DNA of 33,418 nucleotides. Origin: Bacteroidaceae bacterium (GTDB lineage: Bacteria > Bacteroidota > Bacteroidia > Bacteroidales > Bacteroidaceae). The stretch is taken from assembly GCA_017470525.1 (NCBI GenBank), contig JAFUYM010000026.1, forward strand, positions 1-33,418. Direction: 5' to 3'. A program made the translations under genes and the position numbers. The notes beneath the pieces were generated by a model that was given only the letters and a program-made list of their open reading frames with translations, was not told where the DNA came from and ran no database searches. Shown piece after piece: positions 18,240 through 32,393 of the stretch (positions are counted from its first letter, which is position 1; each line of letters begins with the position of its first letter).

Positions 18240-18422
18240 CGGTGGAAGCCCCTTCTGCGGAACTGCTTATGGAGGAAAGAAAGAACTACCACAAGTTCCT
18301 ACGTTGTTCATTTCAACACACGTGAGTGCCGTTTTTTCAATTCCTAGTGTTTTTTTGCACTTATTTGATGGAAAAATTAGTTAATATTCAGAAACAAACG
18401 GAATAGAAAAGGAAAAATGTTG

Positions 18423-23712: not shown

Positions 23713-24147
23713 ATGATAAGTTACAATGTTGACGGTGTGAAAATGCCTGCCATCCGTCGCCGCGACACCAGCGCATGGATAAAGGCTGTTGCTGCCACAT
23801 ACGGCAAAAGGGTGGGGGACATCGCCTACATCTTCTGCGACGACGAGAAGATTCTGGAGGTCAATCGACAGTATCTCCAGCATGACTACTACACCGACAT
23901 CATCACTTTCGACTACTGCGACGATGCCCTCCTCACAGGCAAGAAAGACACCATCGCGGGCGACCTCTTCATCAGCCTCGACACCGTGCGTTCCAATGCT
24001 GAGCAACAAGGCACCACTTATGAAGAAGAACTGCACCGCGTCATCATCCACGGAGTGCTCCACCTCTGCGGCATCAACGACAAAGGTCCTGGCGAACGGG
24101 AAATTATGGAAGCAGCAGAGAACAAGGCACTCGCCATGCTCTCATAG
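23713..24147 (+). CDS. ybeY: Endoribonuclease YbeY (rRNA maturation factor)
   Basis: This 144-aa metal-dependent RNase acts in 16S rRNA 3'-end processing and ribosome quality control. Signature regions are LEVNRQYLQHDYYTDIITFDY and HGVLHLCGINDKGPGERE near the C-terminus. Two zinc-ligand histidines (HxxxH) are present. The third, His in E. coli HGMLHLLGYDH, aligns with Asp here; I recall similar sequences in other Bacteroidota YbeY, so this is probably a lineage trait rather than damage. The ATG lies 1 bp after the S41 protease stop. The gene ends the operon that starts near 18423 and is followed by a CTAG array. Confidence 0.93.
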   Translation: MISYNVDGVKMPAIRRRDTSAWIKAVAATYGKRVGDIAYIFCDDEKILEVNRQYLQHDYYTDIITFDYCDDALLTGKKDTIAGDLFISLDTVRSNAEQQGTTYEEELHRVIIHGVLHLCGINDKGPGEREIMEAAENKALAMLS

Positions 24148-24154
24148 AGAAATT

Positions 24155-24244
24155 CTAACTTTTCTAGCCTATCTAGAATAACTAGAATGACTAGTAGGGC
24201 TAGAAAGGCTAGAAAGGCTAAAAAGGCTAAAAGGATTAGACAAA
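24155..24244. repeat. CTAG array A, 10 units of exactly 9 nt
   Basis: CTAG or a one-base variant (CTAA, TTAG) starts at 24155, 24164, 24173, 24182, 24191, 24200, 24209, 24218, 24227 and 24236, without slippage. The 5-nt spacers are mixed at the left end (for example CCTAT) and mostly AAAGG at the right. The array fills most of the 127-bp gap between ybeY and argF', starting 8 bp after the ybeY stop. It ends in ACAAACAAC, nearly the same as the end of array B. Confidence 0.9.
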
Positions 24245-24274
24245 CAACAGAATAGATAAAAAACCACAAACAAT

Positions 24275-25303
24275 ATGAAAATCTTTCAACACGTTTCCGA
24301 TATCGGCGACCTCCGCAAAGCCCTCGACGAGGCTTTTGAAATCAAGGCTGACCGTTACAAGTATCAGCAGTTGGGTAAGAACAAAACTGCGATGCTCATT
24401 TTCTTCAATAACTCTCTCCGCACTCGCCTCTCCACCCAAAAGGCAGCCCTCAACCTCGGCATGAACGTCATCGTGCTCGATGTAAATCAAGGTGCTTGGA
24501 AATTGGAGACAGAGCGCGGTGTCATCATGGAAAGCGACAAGAGCGAACATCTCTTGGAAGCCATTCCTGTGATGGGGTGCTATTGCGACATCATCGGTGT
24601 GCGTTCCTTTGCCCGGTTTGAATCTCGCAAGGATGATTACGAAGAGAAGATTCTCAATCAGTTCATCCAGTACAGCGGTCGCCCCGTCTTCTTCATGGAG
24701 AGTGCCACCGTGCATCCTTTGCAGGCATTTGCCGACCTCATCACCATTGAGGAGTACAAGAACAAGACGCTGATTGAGCCAAATCCGTTGTTTGGTGGCA
24801 ATGCCATCCAACGCACTCCCAACCAGCGTCCGAAGGTGGTGCTCTCATGGGCACCGCATCCCAAGGCACTTCCACAGGCTGTGCCCAATTCCTTTGCAGA
24901 ATGGATGAATGCTGCCGACGTGGATTTCGTGGTCACACATCCTGAAGGCTACGAACTCGACCCGCAATTTGTGGGCGATGCCAAGGTGGAATACGACCAG
25001 ATGAAAGCATTCGAGGGAGCGGATTTCATCTATGCCAAGAACTGGAGTTGCCCGGGTGTGACCCGTCCTGAAGAGTATGGCAAGGTGTTGGGTGATTATC
25101 ATGATTACGCTGCATGGACCGTATCTGACCGCCAGATGGCAGTGACCAACAACGCTTTCTTCATGCATTGTCTGCCCGTACGCCGCAACATGATTGTGAC
25201 GGACGATGTGATTGAGGCACCCACCTCCATTGTGATTCCAGAGGCAGCCAACCGCGAGATTTCTGCAACGGTGGTGCTGAAACGGATGCTGGAAACGCTA
25301 TAA
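24275..25303 (+). CDS. argF': N-succinyl-L-ornithine carbamoyltransferase
   Basis: This 342-aa transcarbamylase forms N-succinyl-L-citrulline from carbamoyl phosphate and N-succinylornithine in the Bacteroides-type arginine pathway. The carbamoyl-phosphate motif is NNSLRTRLSTQKAA (SxRTR type). MHCLPVRRNMIVTDDVIE gives the HCLP motif. The sequence follows B. fragilis ArgF' closely where I recall it, but residue 90 is Ser (ESDKSEHLLEA) where B. fragilis has Pro90, the residue reported to set succinyl versus acetyl specificity. There are two extra loops, near 183-200 (after EEYKN) and after NWS near 255, so it is longer than the usual about 318 aa. It lies between CTAG arrays A and B; no TAnnTTTG promoter was seen upstream. 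Confidence 0.93.
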   Translation: MKIFQHVSDIGDLRKALDEAFEIKADRYKYQQLGKNKTAMLIFFNNSLRTRLSTQKAALNLGMNVIVLDVNQGAWKLETERGVIMESDKSEHLLEAIPVMGCYCDIIGVRSFARFESRKDDYEEKILNQFIQYSGRPVFFMESATVHPLQAFADLITIEEYKNKTLIEPNPLFGGNAIQRTPNQRPKVVLSWAPHPKALPQAVPNSFAEWMNAADVDFVVTHPEGYELDPQFVGDAKVEYDQMKAFEGADFIYAKNWSCPGVTRPEEYGKVLGDYHDYAAWTVSDRQMAVTNNAFFMHCLPVRRNMIVTDDVIEAPTSIVIPEAANREISATVVLKRMLETL

Positions 25304-25313
25304 GAGGTATTTT

Positions 25314-25385
25314 CTAGCCAAACTAGCCCTTCTAGCCCTACTAGAAATACTAGAAGGGCTAGATAAACTGGAAAGGCTAAACAAA
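25314..25385. repeat. CTAG array B, 8 units of 9 nt with a central hairpin
   Basis: CTAG starts at 25314, 25323, 25332, 25341, 25350 and 25359, then CTGG at 25368 and CTAA at 25377, all in 9-nt phase. Left units read CTAGCCNNN and right units mostly CTAGAANNN, so the halves are complementary: CTAGCCCTTCTAG (25323-25335) pairs perfectly with CTAGAAGGGCTAG (25350-25362). It begins 10 bp after the argF' stop and runs into the terminator at 25390. Confidence 0.9.
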
Positions 25386-25389
25386 CAAC

Positions 25390-25422
25390 AAAAAAGGCTG
25401 CAATCAACTTGCAGCCTTTTTT
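25390..25422. terminator. Bidirectional intrinsic terminator between argF' and lgt
   Basis: A 14-bp perfect stem, AAAAAAGGCTGCAA with TTGCAGCCTTTTTT, encloses a 5-nt loop TCAAC. It has a T run on both strands. The lgt stop codon (25404-25406) lies in the loop, so the hairpin overlaps the end of lgt. Confidence 0.93.
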
Positions 25423-26285
25423 GTTGCCCTTATCATGCACCACACGCCTAAGATGGCGAAGGGGATGCTGAGCAATTGTCCCATATCTAAGAACATGTTC
25501 TGCTCAAATTCCACCTGCTCTTTCTTCAGAAATTCGACAAAGAAGCGGAAGATGAAGATGGTGGCGAGGCAGAAACCGAAATAAAAGCCCGTTCCGACGG
25601 CTATGGGCGACGTTTGGCGCATGCCCTGTGCCTTGTACCAGTGCAGATAAATCAGGGTTCCTACGACAAAAATGATGAAGTAGGCAATGGCTTCATACAA
25701 TTGGGCAGGATGGCGAGGCACCAGTTCGCCGTTCACCATCGACTCATGGCTGTGGAAGATGAATGCCCAAGCCACATCGGTGGTCTTGCCCACAATCTCG
25801 GAATTCATCAGGTTGCCCAAACGAATCAGACAAGCCATCGGAGGCACGGCAATGGCAATGCAATCCATCACCACCCAAGGCTTCACCTTCGTCTTTTTCC
25901 AATAGAGCATCATGGCGATGATGAGACCGATGGTGCCGCCATGAGAAGCCAACCCTTCATATCCCGTGAATTTCCATCCGCCATCGGGCATCTGATGAAT
26001 CGGCAGGAGCATTTCGATGAAACCCTTCCAACTGGTCATGTAGTAACTCCACTCATAAAAGAGGCAATGTCCCAAGCGCGCCCCTATCAGCACACCCAAG
26101 AAACAATAGAAGAAGAGCGGTTCAAACTTCTCGTCCTTGATTTTCAGATGCTTATAGAGCCGCTGCACAATGAGGTATGCCACCAGAAAACCCAAACACC
26201 ACAACAAGCCATACCACCTGACGCTGTATGAGCCGATTGAGAAAGCCTCAACCGATGGCTGCCAATCAATAAAGAGAGTTTCCAT
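25404..26285 (-). CDS. lgt: Prolipoprotein diacylglyceryl transferase
   Basis: This 293-aa integral inner-membrane enzyme attaches diacylglycerol from phosphatidylglycerol to the lipobox Cys of lipoprotein precursors, the first step of lipoprotein maturation. It has about seven hydrophobic segments. Family motifs include VRWYGLLWCLGF, GARLGHCLFYE, ASHGGTIGLI (conserved His), CLIRLGNLMNSEIVG and PRHPAQLYEA. The ATG at 26285 is preferred to an upstream in-frame start because it gives the usual short N-terminus METLFIDW before the first membrane segment. It follows ychF by 48 bp on the same strand, with a 9-bp hairpin in the gap, and ends in the bidirectional terminator. Confidence 0.96.
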   Translation of the reverse strand: METLFIDWQPSVEAFSIGSYSVRWYGLLWCLGFLVAYLIVQRLYKHLKIKDEKFEPLFFYCFLGVLIGARLGHCLFYEWSYYMTSWKGFIEMLLPIHQMPDGGWKFTGYEGLASHGGTIGLIIAMMLYWKKTKVKPWVVMDCIAIAVPPMACLIRLGNLMNSEIVGKTTDVAWAFIFHSHESMVNGELVPRHPAQLYEAIAYFIIFVVGTLIYLHWYKAQGMRQTSPIAVGTGFYFGFCLATIFIFRFFVEFLKKEQVEFEQNMFLDMGQLLSIPFAILGVWCMIRATKKAAS

Positions 26286-26302
26286 TTTGCTATCCTTTGC
26301 AA

Positions 26303-26329
26303 GTGTGCTGCGACAGAATTGCAGCACAC
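26303..26329 (-). other. Hairpin between ychF and lgt
   Basis: GTGTGCTGC (26303-26311) and GCAGCACAC (26321-26329) form a perfect 9-bp stem with a 9-nt loop. On the minus strand it begins 5 nt after the ychF stop and ends 17 nt before the lgt ATG. No T run follows, so it is more likely an mRNA processing or stability element than a full terminator. Confidence 0.6.
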
Positions 26330-26333
26330 AGTT

Positions 26334-27437
26334 TTACACATTAAAGCGGAAGTGCATGATGTCGCCGTCCTGCACCACATAATCCTTTCCTTCCACACCC
26401 AACTTGCCTGCTTCGCGCACAGCGGCTTCACTGCCATACTTCACATAATCCTCGTACTTGATGACCTCAGCACGAATGAAGCCCTTCTCGAAATCGGTGT
26501 GAATCACACCTGCACACTGCGGTGCTTTCCATCCCTTCCTGAAGGTCCATGCCTTCACCTCCATTTCGCCAGCGGTGATGAAAGTTTGCAGGTTCAGCAG
26601 GGCATAAATCGCTTTAATCAGACGGTTGCAACCACTTTCCTCCAAACCCATATCTTCGAGGAACATCTGCTTCTCCTCATAACTTTCCAACTCAGCGATG
26701 TCGGCTTCGGTTTGCGCGCTGATGACAATGAGTTCTGCCTCCTCGCCCTTGATGGCTTCACGCACCCTATCCACGTAGGCATTGCCCGTTTTCGCACTGG
26801 CATCATCCACATTGCACACATACAGCACAGGCTTGGTGGTGAGCAGGAACATCTGCTTGGCTGCCTGTACTTCTTCCTCATTTTCAGGCACTACGACACG
26901 TGCCGAGAGTCCCTTCTCCAGTGCTTCCTTATAGCGAAGCAGCAAGCCATATTCCACCTTGGCAGCCTTGTCGTGACCCACATTGGCAAGTTTCTCGGTC
27001 TTCTTCAGGCGCATCTCCACCGTTTCCAAGTCCTTCAGTTGCAATTCCGTGTCAATAATTTCCTTATCGCGCACTGGGTCAACGCTGCCATCCACATGTA
27101 CGATGTTGCCGTTGTCAAAACAGCGCAACACATGGATAATCGCATCACACTCACGGATGTTGCCCAAGAACTGGTTGCCCAATCCTTCACCCTTGCTGGC
27201 ACCCTTCACCAGACCTGCAATATCCACAATGTCGCACACCGCTGGCACAATCCTGCCTGGATGCACCAGTTCCGCCAGTTTCGTCAGTCGTTCATCAGGC
27301 ACACTCACCTGTCCCAACTGCGCATCTATCGTACAAAAAGGAAAATTCGCTGCCTGCGCCTTTGCGCTCGACAAGCAATTAAAAAGTGTTGATTTGCCCA
27401 CATTCGGCAAACCTACAATACCTGCTTTCAAAGCCAT
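26334..27437 (-). CDS. ychF: Redox-regulated ATPase YchF (Obg-family)
   Basis: This 367-aa cytoplasmic P-loop NTPase of the TRAFAC/Obg family associates with ribosomes and prefers ATP. It has the Walker A GLPNVGKST, the effector stretch NFPFCTIDAQLG, a G3 motif DIAGLVKGASKGEGLGNQFL, and an altered G4, VCNVDD, in place of NKxD, consistent with the ATP preference. A coiled-coil insertion follows G3. The C-terminal TGS domain contains CAGVIHTDFEKGFIRAEV and YVVQDGDIMHFRFNV. The ATG at 27437 gives the canonical MALKAGIVGLPNVGKS start. Its -7 box is at 27478-27485. lgt lies 48 bp downstream. Confidence 0.96.
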   Translation of the reverse strand: MALKAGIVGLPNVGKSTLFNCLSSAKAQAANFPFCTIDAQLGQVSVPDERLTKLAELVHPGRIVPAVCDIVDIAGLVKGASKGEGLGNQFLGNIRECDAIIHVLRCFDNGNIVHVDGSVDPVRDKEIIDTELQLKDLETVEMRLKKTEKLANVGHDKAAKVEYGLLLRYKEALEKGLSARVVVPENEEEVQAAKQMFLLTTKPVLYVCNVDDASAKTGNAYVDRVREAIKGEEAELIVISAQTEADIAELESYEEKQMFLEDMGLEESGCNRLIKAIYALLNLQTFITAGEMEVKAWTFRKGWKAPQCAGVIHTDFEKGFIRAEVIKYEDYVKYGSEAAVREAGKLGVEGKDYVVQDGDIMHFRFNV

Positions 27438-27477
27438 TTCTTGTTTCTTTTCTAACCAACAATTTGTAAATCTGCTG

Positions 27478-27485
27478 CAAAGGTA
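27478..27485 (-). promoter_or_regulatory. -7 element TACCTTTG for ychF-lgt
   Basis: TACCTTTG on the minus strand matches TAnnTTTG and leaves a leader of about 35 nt to the ychF ATG. No good -33 TTTG is seen about 20 bp upstream. Confidence 0.65.
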
Positions 27486-27595
27486 CGGAATATTTTGGAA
27501 AGAAAGGGAAAACACCTGCACAAAATCTTTTCTTCGTGGGAGAAAAAGAGCCTACACGCTCCACCTCCGCGCCCCTGCTTCCACAACCTCTAAAG

Positions 27596-27825
27596 GGGAG
27601 AGAGTCTTACCCTTCCAAGGGAGAGAGTCTTACCCTTTAAGGGGTGAGAGTCACTCCCCTTTAGGGGTGCTGAAACAGCCCTGAAAAGGGTGATGGCAGA
27701 AACGGGAAAGTGGAGCACCCAGAAGCATTTGGGCGAGGAATGCAAAAGCAGGGCAATGGAGAACTTTGGGATAGGGTGGTGGAGAACTTTAGGGTAGGGT
27801 GGTGGAGAAGCCACCACGAATTGAA
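27596..27825. repeat. Degenerate tandem array of ten 23-nt units
   Basis: Units start at 27596, 27619, 27642, 27665, 27688, 27711, 27734, 27757, 27780 and 27803. Nine of the ten begin with a form of (G/T)GG(A/T)G; unit 7 (CGAGGA) diverges. Units 1 and 2 share the exact 19-mer GGGAGAGAGTCTTACCCTT; units 8 and 9 differ at two positions. The first three units are bounded by CCTCTAAAGGGG (27587) and CCCCTTTAGGGG (27656), a near-perfect inverted pair. It occupies half of the 503-bp space between ychF and purL. No convincing gene was seen there. Confidence 0.75.
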
Positions 27826-27865
27826 AAATGCACACAGAGAAAAAGGTTTTTTCAAGAAATAATGT

Positions 27866-27880
27866 AAGTTCGTAGAACTT
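27866..27880. promoter_or_regulatory. Palindrome next to the purL -33 element
   Basis: AAGTTC-GTA-GAACTT has 6-bp perfect arms and a 3-nt centre and ends 4 bp before the TTG at 27885. Position and form suit an operator for purL, but no regulator can be named. Confidence 0.45.
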
Positions 27881-27884
27881 TATA

Positions 27885-27915
27885 TTGGGGTTTCGGGGAA
27901 AATGTCGTACCTTTG
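27885..27915 (+). promoter_or_regulatory. purL promoter
   Basis: A TTG -33 element (27885-27887) and TACCTTTG -7 element (27908-27915) are separated by 20 bp. The -7 box overlaps an upstream in-frame ATG (27902), so translation must begin at the ATG at 27941. Confidence 0.75.
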
Positions 27916-27940
27916 CAGGAAAATTCACATCTGTTATTTT

Positions 27941-30900
27941 ATGATTTACTTTTTCAGAACACCAGCACAGAGCGTGATAGCCACTCAAGTGAACCATGAA
28001 CTCTCTGCTGATGAAACCCGTGAACTTTGCTGGCTGTATGGCGAGGCTCAACCCGAAAGTGAGAACAATTTGCAGGGATTCTTCGTAGGTCCTCGCCGTG
28101 AAATGATTACTCCTTGGAGCACCAATGCTGTGGAAATCACACAGAACATGGCGATTCAGGGTGTGCAGCGCATTGAGGAGTATTTCCCTGTGGAGAGTGA
28201 GGACGCAGAACATGACCCCATGCTGCAACGCATGTACAAGGGCTTGAATCAGGACATCTTTACGGTGAACATCGAACCTGCACCGATTCTGCATATTGAG
28301 AATCTCGAAGAATATAATGAGCAGGAGGGACTTGCTCTCTCGCCCGAGGAGATAGAATACCTGCACAAGGTGGAGGGTCAGTTGGGCAGAAAGTTGACCG
28401 ACTCCGAGGTGTTTGGTTTTGCGCAGATTAACTCCGAACATTGCCGCCACAAGATTTTCGGCGGCACGTTCATCATCGACGGCAAGGAGAAGGAGAGTTC
28501 ACTCTTCCAGATGATTAAGAAGACAACCCAAGAGAACCCCAACAAGATTCTCTCAGCATATAAAGACAACGTGGCGTTCAGTCAAGGTCCTGTGGTGGAG
28601 CAGTTTGCTCCTGCCGACCACTCGACGAGCGACTATTTTGAAGTGAAGGACATCGAGTCGGTGATTTCGCTGAAGGCTGAAACGCACAACTTCCCCACGA
28701 CGGTGGAGCCGTTCAACGGTGCTGCTACGGGTACGGGCGGTGAAATCCGTGACCGTATGGGTGGCGGTGTCGGCTCCTGGCCAATTGCTGGTACGGCGGT
28801 GTATATGACCAGTTACCCACGCAATGGGGTGGCTCCGAGTCAGCCACATAGTTATCCGAAGTGGACAAAGTCAGATAAGGAGGGCGACATCCGTCCTTGG
28901 GAAGAGATTCTGCCTATCAGAAAGTGGCTGTATCAGACTCCTGAGCAGATTCTGATTAAGGCATCGAACGGTGCCAGTGACTTTGGCAATAAGTTTGGTC
29001 AGCCGCTGATTTGTGGTTCTGTGCTCACGTTCGAGCATGCCGAACAGCAGGGCGACACGACAGAAGAATACGGCTACGACAAGGTGATTATGCTGGCTGG
29101 TGGTGTGGGTTACGGCACCAAGCGCGACTGCCTGAAGGGTACGCCTGAAAAGGGCAACAAGATTGTGGTGGTCGGTGGCGACAACTACCGCATCGGTCTC
29201 GGTGGCGGGTCTGTGTCTTCTGTAGATACGGGTCGCTATTCGTCGGGCATCGAGTTGAACGCTGTGCAACGTGCCAACCCCGAGATGCAGAAACGCGCCA
29301 ACAACCTCGTTCGCGCGCTGTGTGAGGAGGAGGTGAATCCTGTGGTGAGCATTCACGACCACGGCTCCGCAGGACACGTCAATTGCCTGTCTGAATTGGT
29401 GGAAGAATGTGGTGGTCTCATCGACATGACCAAGTTGCCAATTGGCGACCAAACACTCTCTTCGAAGGAGATTATTGCCAACGAGAGTCAGGAGCGCATG
29501 GGTCTTCTCATCGACGAAAAGCATATTGAGCACGTGCGTCAGATTGCAGAGCGTGAACGCGCACCGCTGTATGTGGTGGGTGAAACGACGGGCGATGCAC
29601 ACTTCGCCTTCCAACAGGGAGACGGTGTACGTCCGTTTGACTTGGATGTGGCACAGATGTTCGGTCATTCGCCCAAGACCTACATGAGGGATGAAACGGT
29701 GGAGAGGAAGTATGAGGATGTGGGTTATTCCTACAAGGAAATCGAGGCATATCTGGAGAACGTGCTGCAACTGGAGGCTGTGGCTTGTAAGGACTGGTTG
29801 ACCAACAAGGTGGACCGTTCGGTGACGGGTAAGATTGCCCGTCAGCAGTGCCAAGGCGAGATTCAGTTGCCACTCAGCGACTGCGGTGTGGTGGCATTGG
29901 ATTATCGGGGCGAGAAGGGTATCGCCACTGCCATCGGTCATGCACCACAGGCAGGTTTGGCAGACCCAGCAGCGGGCAGTGTGCTCTCTGTGGCTGAATC
30001 GCTCACGAATCTCGTGTGGGCACCCATGGCTGAAGGTCTTGACTCAGTGAGCCTGTCGGCAAACTGGATGTGGCCCTGCCGTTCGCAGAAGGGTGAGGAT
30101 GCACGTCTGTATCAGGGTGTGCAGGCATTGAGCGACTTCTGCTGTGCTTTGCAAGTGAATGTGCCGACAGGTAAGGATTCACTCTCCATGACACAGAAGT
30201 ATCCTGACGGCAGCAAGATTATCTCGCCGGGAACGGTGATTGTATCGTCAGGCGGTGAGGTGAGCGACGTGAAGAAAGTGGTTAGCCCTGTGTTGGTGAA
30301 CGATGCGAACACAACGCTTTATCATATCGACTTCTCGTTCGACAAACTGAGATTGGGCGGTTCTGCCTTTGCTCAGAGCCTTGGCAAAGTGGGTAGCGAT
30401 GTGCCGACGGTGAAGAACCCTGAGTATTTCAGAGATGCGTTCTTGGCTGTGCAGGAATTGGTGAAGGAGGAACTCCTTTTGGCGGGTCACGACATTAGTG
30501 CAGGTGGTTTGATTACGACGCTGCTGGAGATGACGTTTGCCAATCAGAAAGGCGGTATCAAGGCAGACTTGAACGGCATTGCAGAGAAAGACCCTGTGAA
30601 GTTGCTCTTTGCTGAGAACCCCGGGGTGGTGATTCAGGTGAAGAATGCAGACAAGCGAGATGTGGAGACGATTCTGAACAAGGCAGGTGTTGGTTTCGTG
30701 GAAATCGGACATCCTATTGAGGAACGCCAGATTGTGGTGAAGAAGGGTGGTCGCAACCGCTATTTCGACATCGACAAACTGCGCGATATTTGGTACAGCA
30801 CTTCTTACCGCCTCGACACAAAGCAGTCGTTCAACGGCATGGCAAAGGAGCGTTTTGAGAACTATAAAAAGCAACCGATTGAGCACAAGTTCCCTGCTTC

Positions 30901-31729
30901 CTTCACGGGCCAGTTGGCACAGTATGGCATCAGCGCTGACCGCCGCGAACGTACTGGCGTGAAGGCAGCCATCATCCGCGAGAAGGGTACGAACGGTGAG
31001 CGCGAAATGGCTTACTCGTTGTATCTGGCGGGCTTCGACGTGAAGGATGTGATGATGACCGACCTTGTGAGTGGTCGTGAGACCTTGGAGGACATCAACA
31101 TGATTGTATTCTGTGGTGGTTTCTCCAACTCCGACGTGCTGGGCAGTGCGAAGGGATGGGCAGGTGCCTTCCTGTTCAATCCGAAGGCAAAGGCAGCACT
31201 CGATGCGTTCTATGCCCGTGAGGACACGCTGTCATTAGGTATCTGCAACGGATGCCAGTTGATGGTGGAACTCGGTTTGATTAACAACAACCATGCGGTG
31301 ACGGACGCGAAGGATTATGCGCAGATGTTGCACAATGTGAGCCACAAGTTTGAGAGTGAGTTTGTGACCCTCCAGATTCCAGAGAACAAGTCTGTCATGT
31401 TCGGTTCGCTGAGTGGTAGCAAGTTAGGCTTGTGGGTGGCTCATGGTGAGGGCAACTTCCGTCTGCCAAAGGCTGAAAGCGACTACCATATCGTAGCCAA
31501 ATACAACTATTCTGGCTATCCAGCCAATCCTAACGGTTCTACCTATGATGTGGCTGGTATCGCATCGGCTGATGGTCGCCACTTGGCAATGATGCCGCAC
31601 CTCGAACGTGCTATCTTCCCATGGCAACAGGCAAACTACCCTGCTGACAGGAAGGGCGATGAGGTGACTCCTTGGATTGAAGCATTTGTGAACGCACGAA
31701 AGTGGGTGGAAAAAAAGAAGGGGCAATAG
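27941..31729 (+). CDS. purL: Phosphoribosylformylglycinamidine synthase, single-chain
   Basis: This 1262-aa cytoplasmic enzyme converts FGAR, glutamine and ATP to FGAM in purine synthesis. It is the large form, with all domains in one chain. An N-terminal PurS-like region is followed by a linker with FGFAQINSEHCRHKIFGGTF, ATP-grasp-like AIRS domains (SLKAETHNFPTTVEPFNGAA, GGEIRDRMGGG, NVPTGKDSLSM) and a class I glutamine amidotransferase domain from about residue 1004. The nucleophile is Cys1102 in LGICNGCQLM, and PHLERAIFPW is near the C-terminus. The ATG at 27941 (MIYFFRTPAQSV) is chosen because the promoter overlaps the earlier ATG. CTAG array C begins 6 bp after the stop. Confidence 0.97.
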   Translation: MIYFFRTPAQSVIATQVNHELSADETRELCWLYGEAQPESENNLQGFFVGPRREMITPWSTNAVEITQNMAIQGVQRIEEYFPVESEDAEHDPMLQRMYKGLNQDIFTVNIEPAPILHIENLEEYNEQEGLALSPEEIEYLHKVEGQLGRKLTDSEVFGFAQINSEHCRHKIFGGTFIIDGKEKESSLFQMIKKTTQENPNKILSAYKDNVAFSQGPVVEQFAPADHSTSDYFEVKDIESVISLKAETHNFPTTVEPFNGAATGTGGEIRDRMGGGVGSWPIAGTAVYMTSYPRNGVAPSQPHSYPKWTKSDKEGDIRPWEEILPIRKWLYQTPEQILIKASNGASDFGNKFGQPLICGSVLTFEHAEQQGDTTEEYGYDKVIMLAGGVGYGTKRDCLKGTPEKGNKIVVVGGDNYRIGLGGGSVSSVDTGRYSSGIELNAVQRANPEMQKRANNLVRALCEEEVNPVVSIHDHGSAGHVNCLSELVEECGGLIDMTKLPIGDQTLSSKEIIANESQERMGLLIDEKHIEHVRQIAERERAPLYVVGETTGDAHFAFQQGDGVRPFDLDVAQMFGHSPKTYMRDETVERKYEDVGYSYKEIEAYLENVLQLEAVACKDWLTNKVDRSVTGKIARQQCQGEIQLPLSDCGVVALDYRGEKGIATAIGHAPQAGLADPAAGSVLSVAESLTNLVWAPMAEGLDSVSLSANWMWPCRSQKGEDARLYQGVQALSDFCCALQVNVPTGKDSLSMTQKYPDGSKIISPGTVIVSSGGEVSDVKKVVSPVLVNDANTTLYHIDFSFDKLRLGGSAFAQSLGKVGSDVPTVKNPEYFRDAFLAVQELVKEELLLAGHDISAGGLITTLLEMTFANQKGGIKADLNGIAEKDPVKLLFAENPGVVIQVKNADKRDVETILNKAGVGFVEIGHPIEERQIVVKKGGRNRYFDIDKLRDIWYSTSYRLDTKQSFNGMAKERFENYKKQPIEHKFPASFTGQLAQYGISADRRERTGVKAAIIREKGTNGEREMAYSLYLAGFDVKDVMMTDLVSGRETLEDINMIVFCGGFSNSDVLGSAKGWAGAFLFNPKAKAALDAFYAREDTLSLGICNGCQLMVELGLINNNHAVTDAKDYAQMLHNVSHKFESEFVTLQIPENKSVMFGSLSGSKLGLWVAHGEGNFRLPKAESDYHIVAKYNYSGYPANPNGSTYDVAGIASADGRHLAMMPHLERAIFPWQQANYPADRKGDEVTPWIEAFVNARKWVEKKKGQ

Positions 31730-31735
31730 GATTTT

Positions 31736-31844
31736 CTAGCCCTTCTAGCCTCTCTAGCCCGACTAGAAAGACTAGAAAGACTAGATGTTACTAGAAAGGC
31801 TAGATATACTAGAAGGGCTAGAATGACTAGATAAACTAGAAAAA
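31736..31844. repeat. CTAG array C, 12 units of 9 nt with one 10-nt step
   Basis: Perfect CTAG starts at 31736, 31745, 31754, 31763, 31772, 31781, 31791, 31800, 31809, 31818, 31827 and 31836. All steps are 9 nt except 31781 to 31791. The first three units are CTAGCC(C/T) type, and the rest are CTAGA type. CTAGCCCTTCTAG (31736-31748) is the reverse complement of CTAGAAGGGCTAG (31809-31821), the same pair as in array B. It fills the gap between purL and the chrA pair. Confidence 0.92.
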
Positions 31845-31859
31845 GGAAACAAATAGCGC

Positions 31860-32393
31860 ATGGGCATCTACACCGACATCTTCCTCACATTCGCCAAAAT
31901 CGGTAGTTTCACCCTTGGGGGAGGCTACGCTATGGTGCAGATAATGGAGAAGGAAGTGGTGGATAAGAAGCACTGGTTGAGCCATGAGGAGTTTATGGAC
32001 ACGCTGGTGGTGGCACAGAGCACTCCTGGCCTCTTTGCCATCGACATGGCATCGCACATCGGCTTGAAACTGAAAGGTGTGACTGGAGGCGTTGTGGGAG
32101 CATTGGCTACCGCACTGCCTTCCATTATTGCGATACTCCTCATAGCCATGTTTTTCCAGACCTTTAAGGACAATATCTATGTGGAGAAAGTCTTTATGGG
32201 TGTGCGACCTTGTGTGGTGGCGTTGATTCTCGCTCCTTGCTTCACGATGGCGAGGAAGGCGAAACTGAATAAGTACAACTGGTGGATTCCTGTGGTGACG
32301 GCTGTGCTGATTGCAGCCTTCGGAGTGTCGCCCATCTGGTGCATCCTTGTGGCTGGCATTGGCGGATTCCTGTGGGGTAAATTGAAAGATTGA
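31860..32393 (+). CDS. chrA: Chromate transporter family protein, first short-chain half
   Basis: This 177-aa membrane protein equals one half of a ChrA (CHR family) transporter. The conserved N-terminal motif is FAKIGSFTLGGGYAMVQIMEKEVV, followed by VAQSTPGLFAIDMASHIG. Hydrophobic segments near 75-100, 115-130 and 140-165 suit several membrane helices. Short-chain CHR proteins usually occur as adjacent pairs that work together, as here. CHR proteins export chromate in some bacteria, but the substrate is unproven in most, so the name is a family label. It starts 15 bp after CTAG array C; the partner starts 15 bp downstream. Confidence 0.9.
   Translation: MGIYTDIFLTFAKIGSFTLGGGYAMVQIMEKEVVDKKHWLSHEEFMDTLVVAQSTPGLFAIDMASHIGLKLKGVTGGVVGALATALPSIIAILLIAMFFQTFKDNIYVEKVFMGVRPCVVALILAPCFTMARKAKLNKYNWWIPVVTAVLIAAFGVSPIWCILVAGIGGFLWGKLKD

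Follow-up and report, generated by a model that had tools for sequence, protein, structure and literature searches.

Background

Short operator sites repeated in tandem are known from the regulators MetJ and TrpR, which bind cooperatively to short palindromic sites at a spacing of about 8 bp, the TrpR site containing CTAG. The window analysed here, a stretch of 33,418 nucleotides from a Bacteroidaceae bacterium (GenBank assembly GCA_017470525.1, contig JAFUYM010000026.1), carries three arrays in which CTAG recurs on a 9-nt grid, the one under study (array A, 24155..24244, + strand) being located between ybeY and the gene of an N-acetylornithine carbamoyltransferase-like protein (argF'). Together with genes of a helix-bundle protein family (NCBIfam TIGR04258), such arrays look like an undescribed protein-plus-repeat system in gut Bacteroidales. 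The operators of MetJ and TrpR are few and located upstream of promoters, whereas the grid arrays are many, are found at the 3' ends of genes and go with an unrelated protein.

Repetitive extragenic palindromes (REPs) are described as palindromes of 20-40 bp, mostly GTAG-tagged, and REP-associated tyrosine transposases (RAYTs) as transposases flanked by REPs (PMC3733652). The likeness to the present case consists of dispersed palindromic extragenic repeats and of a gene of a single family flanked by them, with some genomes having the repeats without the gene. The unit here is, however, a core of 4-6 nt on a grid of 9 or 10 nt instead of a GTAG-ended palindrome of 20-40 bp, and the partner is a TIGR04258/TIGR02436 four-helix bundle; scans of four such proteins found no transposase domain. 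The partner resembles the 23S rRNA intervening-sequence proteins (IVPs; PF05635, TIGR02436) in protein family and fold (2gsc, 2rld), but the genes examined have protein-coding genes as neighbours, adjoin tandem arrays and encode the TIGR04258 suffix. As for Avd and the diversity-generating retroelements, no reverse transcriptase, template repeat (TR) or variable repeat (VR) was noticed beside 17 loci, no systematic search having been made. Non-CRISPR hypervariable arrays, found by CRISPR-type finders, have been reported in which a protein gene lies beside a conserved repeat with variable spacers (PMC10910872); AddB-like and GGDEF systems are named there, and a 23S rRNA IVP is mentioned in the legend of a figure about CRISPR adaptation modules. 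The grid arrays share with those the placement of a protein gene next to conserved repeats with variable spacers, but differ from CRISPR-type arrays in that the core is of 4-6 nt and the spacers of 3-6 nt, with no long repeats or longer unique spacers.

A helix-bundle gene family beside the arrays

When the genomes of 84,980 species were scanned for CTAG repeated six times at a 9-nt pitch, at least 115 loci were found. The genes flanking the arrays in the window and in 104 of these loci were compared with each other, leaving out 11 loci of other phyla and keeping five more of that kind, including L114. One family recurred at eight loci (L048, L049, L055, L071, L093, L096, L113 and L114), or at seven if the non-Bacteroidota locus L114 is excluded, and every other family was found at two loci at most. 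Arrays were present on both sides of the family gene in four of the eight (L048, L055, L071 and L114). L114, assigned outside the Bacteroidota, is thus a CTAG locus that also carries the gene.

Four proteins were scanned, and the family was identified as NCBIfam TIGR04258 (four helix bundle suffix domain, 55-71 bits against a curated cut-off of 40 bits) together with TIGR02436 (four helix bundle), also above its cut-off, and Pfam PF05635, below its own. The protein is a bIVP/Avd-like four-helix bundle with a conserved suffix of 49 residues and a coiled coil, and its fold, which matches 2gsc and 2rld, is the four-helix bundle shared by these and Avd. In the four scanned proteins neither a transposase nor a reverse-transcriptase domain scored meaningfully, and PADLOC assigned no credible family to three proteins. 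A literature search found no account of the grid arrays or of TIGR04258 biology, a curator's remark in the notes of the NCBI model being possible.

Within the genus of the window, TIGR04258 was detected in 28 of 45 genomes (27 over the cut-off) and in none of 14 control genomes. Out of 50 hits in the genus, seven fragments or hits without a clean open reading frame (ORF) were dropped, so that 43 were usable. An array at a pitch of 9 or 10 nt was found in the 180-bp flanks (autocorrelation of at least 0.55) of 32 of these 43 genes, as compared to 57 of 920 ordinary genes drawn from six sampled genomes (odds ratio 44), and with a stricter autocorrelation of 0.62 the figures were 25 of 43 and 26 of 920. 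The p values of this adjacency are overstated because of near-duplicate loci (L382/L397, L367/L368 and L404/L405). Several of the genes have their own repeats on both sides (e.g., L363-L365, L374, L395, L398 and L402). An alternative control made of the flanks of ybeY and argF was rejected as biased, containing the array loci of the window itself and one region repeatedly sampled; at 0.55 it gave 33 of 50 TIGR04258 genes vs 21 of 57 control flanks for any pitch, and 32 vs 10 for a best pitch of 9 or 10.

Seventeen loci chosen for clade spread were inspected for other neighbours, and seven neighbouring genes picked for a restriction-modification (R-M) look were scanned with Pfam, one at each locus. 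The domains found were Methylase_S (L363 and L407), Eco57I (L371), T5orf172 plus ResIII (L382), HSDR_N (L398) and N6_Mtase (L402 and L369); specificity, methylase and restriction subunits are thereby represented, and an eighth locus, L380, is R-M-like by eye. TIGR04258 genes therefore often, though not always, adjoin restriction-modification genes. At another locus (L403, G047:C89) the N terminus of the TIGR04258 ORF resembles SGQSGHSGQ, as though the coding sequence had absorbed a 9-nt array.

Array core and protein clade

The cores found beside TIGR04258 genes are CTAG at a pitch of 9, CCTAGG at 10, CTATAG at 9 and TCCTC at 10, with CTTAA/CTAA, TCAGA, TCYGGA, TCTCAT and GCCCAT as further 9-nt cores. 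The initial annotation of the window had proposed a family of CTAG arrays; the CTAG grid is real, but further cores exist besides CTAG (among them CCTAGG, CTATAG, CTTAA and TCAGA), and the protein partner had been missed. Core labels were assigned by eye to 34 TIGR04258 proteins, and on the protein tree the nine labels need nine changes, as compared to 16 to 24 in 300 shuffles. The ten CTAG-type proteins form one clade (Shimodaira-Hasegawa-like approximate likelihood ratio test, SH-aLRT, 88), the seven CCTAGG-type proteins form another (SH-aLRT 95), and the six CTATAG-type proteins occupy three places near each other. The TIGR04258 gene is, therefore, usually beside a grid array, and the core of the array follows the clade of the protein.

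The same array types occur elsewhere in the genomes. In 1.58 Mb taken from six genomes a census counted 84 arrays, as against none in locally shuffled sequence. In the genome of the window (G000; 3.24 Mb in 83 contigs, 83% complete) all eight 9-nt rows of the census (array C being split in two) were of CTAG, without the gene. In the related genome G014 the CTAG arrays match its gene, and the CCTAGG arrays, present at seven distal loci, match at most a gene fragment. Arrays matching the genome's own gene were also found in G059 (CCTAGG, one), G016 (TCAGA-type, one) and G004 (CTATAG). For further 9-nt arrays of G059, G015 and G004 no matching gene is known, and several of those in G015 resemble coding repeats. 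Distal arrays were more numerous where the cognate gene is present (p 0.035 for CTAG, 0.021 for CTATAG and 0.002 for CCTAGG). A separate class of tandem arrays with a 7-nt unit (GAAAAGT/TTTTCAC, AATTGAN or GTAAATR) made up 38 of the 84 census arrays in the six genomes, including 3 of 14 in G000 and 11 of 23 in G004. Arrays resembling CTAGTGNNN were seen at L481-L498 (G341 and G212, of a genus in which no TIGR04258 was detected), several of them beside or between 7-nt arrays of the TTAGAGN type.

Of 295 genomes sampled across the order (289 of them with a completeness of 90% or more and a contamination of 5% or less), 35 carry TIGR04258 (32 over the cut-off), namely 6 of the 11 genomes with five-copy CTAG matches and 29 of the 284 others; the reversed control pattern matched three genomes. 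One locus from each of 21 of these 35 genomes was tested outside the genus, and 12 of the 21 had a 9- or 10-nt array beside the gene (220-bp flanks, autocorrelation of at least 0.58), the control being ordinary genes of the genus of the window, not of those outside genomes, of which 57 of 916 pass the same measure. The cores at these loci include AAGGGRTCC, AATTRGWCC, ACAAGTCTG and ACTAGTNNN. G261, with ACTAGT at a pitch of 8 on both sides of the gene, was left out of the 12. In G210, G283 and G340, which belong to one genus, the suffix domain and the sole five-copy CTAG match of the genome are some 0.45 kb apart.

Grid statistics and anatomy of the arrays

The window contains 25 copies of CTAG, 24 of them inside the three arrays and a single one elsewhere (at 18344), as against a trinucleotide expectation of about 38, in agreement with the scarcity outside the arrays that had been noticed at the outset. 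The pattern CTAGN5CTAGN5CTAG, with up to two mismatches, matched 21 times, as compared to a mean of 0.40 and a maximum of 2 in 100 dinucleotide shuffles, so that an excess over shuffled sequence is evident. The proposed genome-wide search for CTAG-N5 gave 35 four-copy matches in the whole G000 assembly and none for the reversed pattern. In a sample of 359 kb of G000, made of stretches of array-carrying contigs and not random, 63 of 92 CTAGs were inside 10 arrays and 29 outside (trinucleotide frequencies predict 423 CTAGs in total), and in 316 kb of G014 there were 23 outside arrays against 482 expected for all CTAG. Homopolymers aside, the 9-nt CTAG grid was the commonest exact four-copy 4-mer grid at pitches 5-15 in the G000 sample, and in an untargeted search CTAG dominated in both genome samples. 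CTAG had been held to be among the rarest tetranucleotides, and it was indeed the second rarest in the G000 sample, AGCT being rarer. In both samples several palindromic 4-mers were depleted, AGCT being below CTAG and GATC rare too. Pitches of 7, 8 and 10 are also found in related genomes.

In the first 80 of the at least 115 loci, non-Bacteroidota included, the steps from CTAG to CTAG within clusters were of 9 nt (663), 8 (63), 18 (19), 10 (8), 7 (5) and others with fewer cases, pitch 9 having been selected by the scan itself. The spacers were analysed in 66 arrays of tandem context, including A and C of the window, after dropping 16 non-Bacteroidota loci and gaps longer than 500 nt. The 427 nine-nt steps contained 188 distinct 5-nt spacers, with CTAG constant, although CTAG itself was part of the search pattern; the near-identical whole units of a minisatellite were thus not found, and the impression that spacers vary while the grid is kept held well beyond the window. 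On the sense strand the spacers are richer in A (A 0.49, T 0.27) than ordinary tandem gaps, for which the initial 60 nt of 137 cases gave 0.31 and 0.27, respectively.

Regarding gene context, 121 arrays (the window plus the Bacteroidota or unnamed loci) comprised 70 in tandem gaps, 10 convergent, 1 divergent, 22 in called genes and 18 at locus edges. With coding-potential gene calls, all 139 arrays gave 74, 13, 1, 25 and 26, respectively, and some of the 25 placements inside genes may be wrong. The initial annotation would have been contradicted by arrays lying inside genes as often as between them; gene calls span 82% of the DNA used, yet only 22 of the 103 placeable arrays fall inside called genes. 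When gaps between 70 and 600 nt long were taken from all loci and from the G000 and G014 stretches, those with arrays were 66 tandem, 11 convergent and 1 divergent, and array-free gaps were 301, 42 and 66 (p 1e-4). The median distance from stop codon to array start is 9 nt, in accordance with the location just after stop codons noticed at the outset. In the Bacteroidota or unnamed loci the stop codon itself lies on the grid for 14 of 23 TAG stops vs 5 of 47 other stops, and from the offsets a TAG stop in phase with the downstream array was read in 13 of the 43 TIGR04258 genes. Genes running into arrays may simply end at the first TAG. A function of array TAGs as back-up stop codons was considered and rejected, the array TAGs showing no frame preference since the counts per frame were 28, 23 and 23 (not counting 14 arrays in which the first CTAG supplies the stop codon; five loci of other phyla are included in this count).

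Orthologous sites and distribution

A CTAG array follows ybeY in 3 of 29 loci of the genus with a readable flank (the window, G014 and G016) and argF' in 4 of 30 (the window, G003, G013 and G014). The spacers differ among all the orthologous arrays, and the remaining loci have no array. The proposed check for conservation in relatives thus found arrays at shared sites, but in a minority of species. All four argF' arrays are preceded by the stop codon and followed by a conserved terminator-like hairpin and should therefore be transcribed. In a further pair of loci (L133 and L137), in which both neighbouring genes are common (92% and 76% identity), each has an array with different spacers, and by our reading a grid CTAG inside the gene end of L133 corresponds to TTTGG in L137, a synonymous difference in a Leu codon. 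Some orthologous gene ends, therefore, keep or regain an array with changed spacers. These arrays with differing spacers suggest that site and grid persist or return as the spacers change, in a minority of species; such sites would favour retention of the grid, but they are few.

Among the 115 matches listed, 95 belong to Bacteroidota (93 of them placed in Bacteroidales), 16 to other phyla and 4 to unnamed bacteria, and the loci of other phyla include some of Victivallales, Lentisphaeria, Kiritimatiellae and Verrucomicrobia from the rumen or gut. Contigs of these groups with CTAG arrays, many from rumen or gut, include L033, L070, L073, L087, L104, L114, L123, L125 and L143; transfer, convergence or binning error could each account for them. 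Isolates with CTAG arrays include Prevotellamassilia timonensis and Prevotella sp. tc2-28. In the genus of the window, four-copy arrays were found in 26 of 45 genomes, with 0 to 117 matches per genome, and control matches in none. At least 119 stretches of viral contigs (L147 on) match five copies of CTAGN5. The arrays are thus widespread, mostly intergenic and without a description found in the literature, in accordance with the suggestion of an unrecognised intergenic repeat family.

Arrays and genes of the window

Array A had been described as ten CTAG or variant tetramers on a 9-nt grid after the ybeY stop, and this reading stands: CTAA at 24155 is followed by CTAGs from 24164 to 24212, each 9 nt apart, and then by CTAA, CTAA and TTAG up to 24244, so that six perfect CTAGs are completed to ten grid positions by degenerate units (CTAA and TTAG) at both ends. 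Two further arrays after argF' and purL were likewise found as claimed. Array B (25314..25380, +) has six perfect CTAGs (25314-25362) plus CTGG and CTAA units, and array C (31736..31839, +), with TTTTCTAGCC and CTAGAAAA at its edges, has twelve CTAGs. The grid, claimed to be exact for array A, is so there, and C contains one step of 10 nt (31781 to 31791).

The three arrays start 6-16 nt after the stops of ybeY (rRNA maturation RNase, NCBIfam TIGR00043; 23713..24147, +, with TAG stop at 24145-24147), argF' (24275..25303, +; NCBIfam NF003384, 267 bits, under the cut-off of 288) and purL (phosphoribosylformylglycinamidine synthase, NCBIfam NF003672; 27902..31729, +). Array B lies in a convergent gap, argF' facing lgt (prolipoprotein diacylglyceryl transferase, NCBIfam TIGR00544; 25404..26183, -). 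Directly past array B the fold shows a terminator-like hairpin with a terminal T run (25392..25420, +), which is kept after the argF' arrays of G003, G013 and G014.

The RNA fold of the segment of array A (24140-24262) has -32 kcal/mol and a z of -4.7 against dinucleotide shuffles; z is -7.3 for array B, partly due to the terminator-like hairpin in the same segment, and -6.5 for array C. With regard to features of intrinsic terminators, the window arrays fold well, yet their ends are A-rich, and a separate terminator-like hairpin is present past array B and its three orthologues. When spacers were shuffled with CTAG fixed, the mean fold z was -0.95, and z was below -2 in 18 of the 66 arrays, so that hairpin formation is not general.

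A contig of the same assembly (C55, G000:C55:1-8200) corresponds to window positions 23739-31938 with one mismatch in 8,200 bases and is probably an assembly duplicate or a strain contig; since it repeats their region, the G000 counts include arrays A-C twice. The window also contains two copies of a 7-nt tandem array as an inverted pair (1-26 and 90-116) and two tandem arrays of a 23-nt repeat upstream of purL (27593-27667 and 27757-27809).

Proposed role and alternative explanations

The TIGR04258 protein is probably a core-specific nucleic-acid binder. We see about an even chance that the CTAG arrays are one type within a partnership of TIGR04258 proteins and repeats in which the proteins act as core-recognising oligomers. 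Arrays of the class would consist of a short core, in many cases a palindrome, that recurs at a constant distance of 9 or 10 nt between spacers of variable sequence; they would be found mostly at gene 3' ends, and each array type would pair with one clade of the proteins. An oligomer would recognise its own core on RNA or on DNA, binding along the grid in a cooperative manner, and this binding would select core and pitch while the spacers drift. Arrays at the gene's own locus would allow autoregulation, and dispersed 3'-end arrays could mediate an action on the transcript 3' end, be it stability, termination or translation of the next gene. Since TIGR04258 was not found in G000, the window arrays would either depend on a gene that the incomplete assembly lacks or be leftovers, and RNA hairpins may add to function in the window. 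Out of the three roles initially suggested (a protein-binding ladder, a structure at the mRNA 3' end or a repeat-spreading element), the ladder fits best, and 3'-end hairpins are not a general feature.

Several observations weigh against such a partnership. Searches with TIGR04258 or with our profile A1 found no such gene in G000, six more CTAG-array genomes of the genus (among them G051, with 117 matches) have none, and none was found in G212 and G341, which have variable-spacer arrays. At the level of genomes of the genus, the presence or absence of the gene is not significantly associated with that of CTAG arrays (p 0.07). Gene-less array genomes could reflect assembly gaps, lost genes or another partner. 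They also resemble relics, as would be expected if the arrays propagated themselves in a REP/RAYT-like manner, being copied or extended by the helix-bundle protein together with enzymes of the host or a reverse transcriptase, with dispersed arrays as non-autonomous offspring without a job and gene 3' ends merely tolerating insertions. The same holds for the flanking of the gene by its own repeats at the loci cited above, for the fast turnover apparent after ybeY and argF' and for the wide range of array matches per genome. Self-propagation of this kind is a possibility that we entertain tentatively: the four scanned proteins lack transposase and reverse-transcriptase domains at a meaningful score, spacers vary between and within arrays, unlike copies of a single unit, the same gene ends are occupied in several species, and the pair L133/L137 suggests that the grid moves by point differences.

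An explanation without any dedicated protein, in which the array transcripts form 3'-end hairpins that end or protect the mRNA, could draw on the folding of the window arrays beyond dinucleotide shuffles, on the negative mean z and the 18 arrays below -2 under spacer shuffling and on the location at gene 3' ends. It appears unlikely, given that 48 of the 66 arrays are not unusually stable under spacer shuffling, that many arrays are runs of CTAGAAAAT-type units, unable to pair beyond the core, and that a separate terminator-like hairpin is conserved past the argF' array in four species; the link to a protein family and the clade-specific cores would also be left unexplained. Ordinary minisatellites, that is, 9-nt repeats made by slippage in which CTAG is kept by recency and the helix-bundle link is incidental, would account for tandem arrays with ragged ends and for the identical-unit arrays of some genomes (G128 and G171), but are very improbable in view of the variety of spacers with CTAG kept, the strong gene adjacency and the match of core and clade. 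It could also be that the helix-bundle gene belongs to R-M operons as an accessory and that the arrays mark or hide enzyme sites, CTAG, CCTAGG and CTATAG being palindromic, CTAG being depleted elsewhere and R-M domains being found in neighbours at seven loci. We give little credence to this, however, because those seven were preselected as R-M-like and other neighbours (e.g., at L373, L374, L376, L404 and L408) are not, the arrays follow housekeeping genes, and the TCAGA and TCTCAT cores are not palindromes.

Implications

The chances appear evenly divided on the broader proposal of an undescribed class of element in which clades of an Avd-like four-helix bundle each read, and perhaps write, their own word on a 9- or 10-nt grid at gene 3' ends. 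If it is true, several TIGR04258 genes in one genome would amount to several parallel repeat codes, and the arrays would constitute either genome-wide 3'-end regulons or selfish repeat systems with a non-transposase protein. Were the proteins to spread the arrays, repeats would be propagated without a known transposase; were they to regulate, there would be a 3'-end regulon code in Bacteroidales. The matched pairs of protein and core make nucleic-acid recognition by the IVP/Avd-like fold testable. The partnership would account for odd intergenic repeats in common gut and rumen bacteria, and it offers a possible function, or at least a substrate, for an uncharacterised family of IVP/Avd-like proteins.
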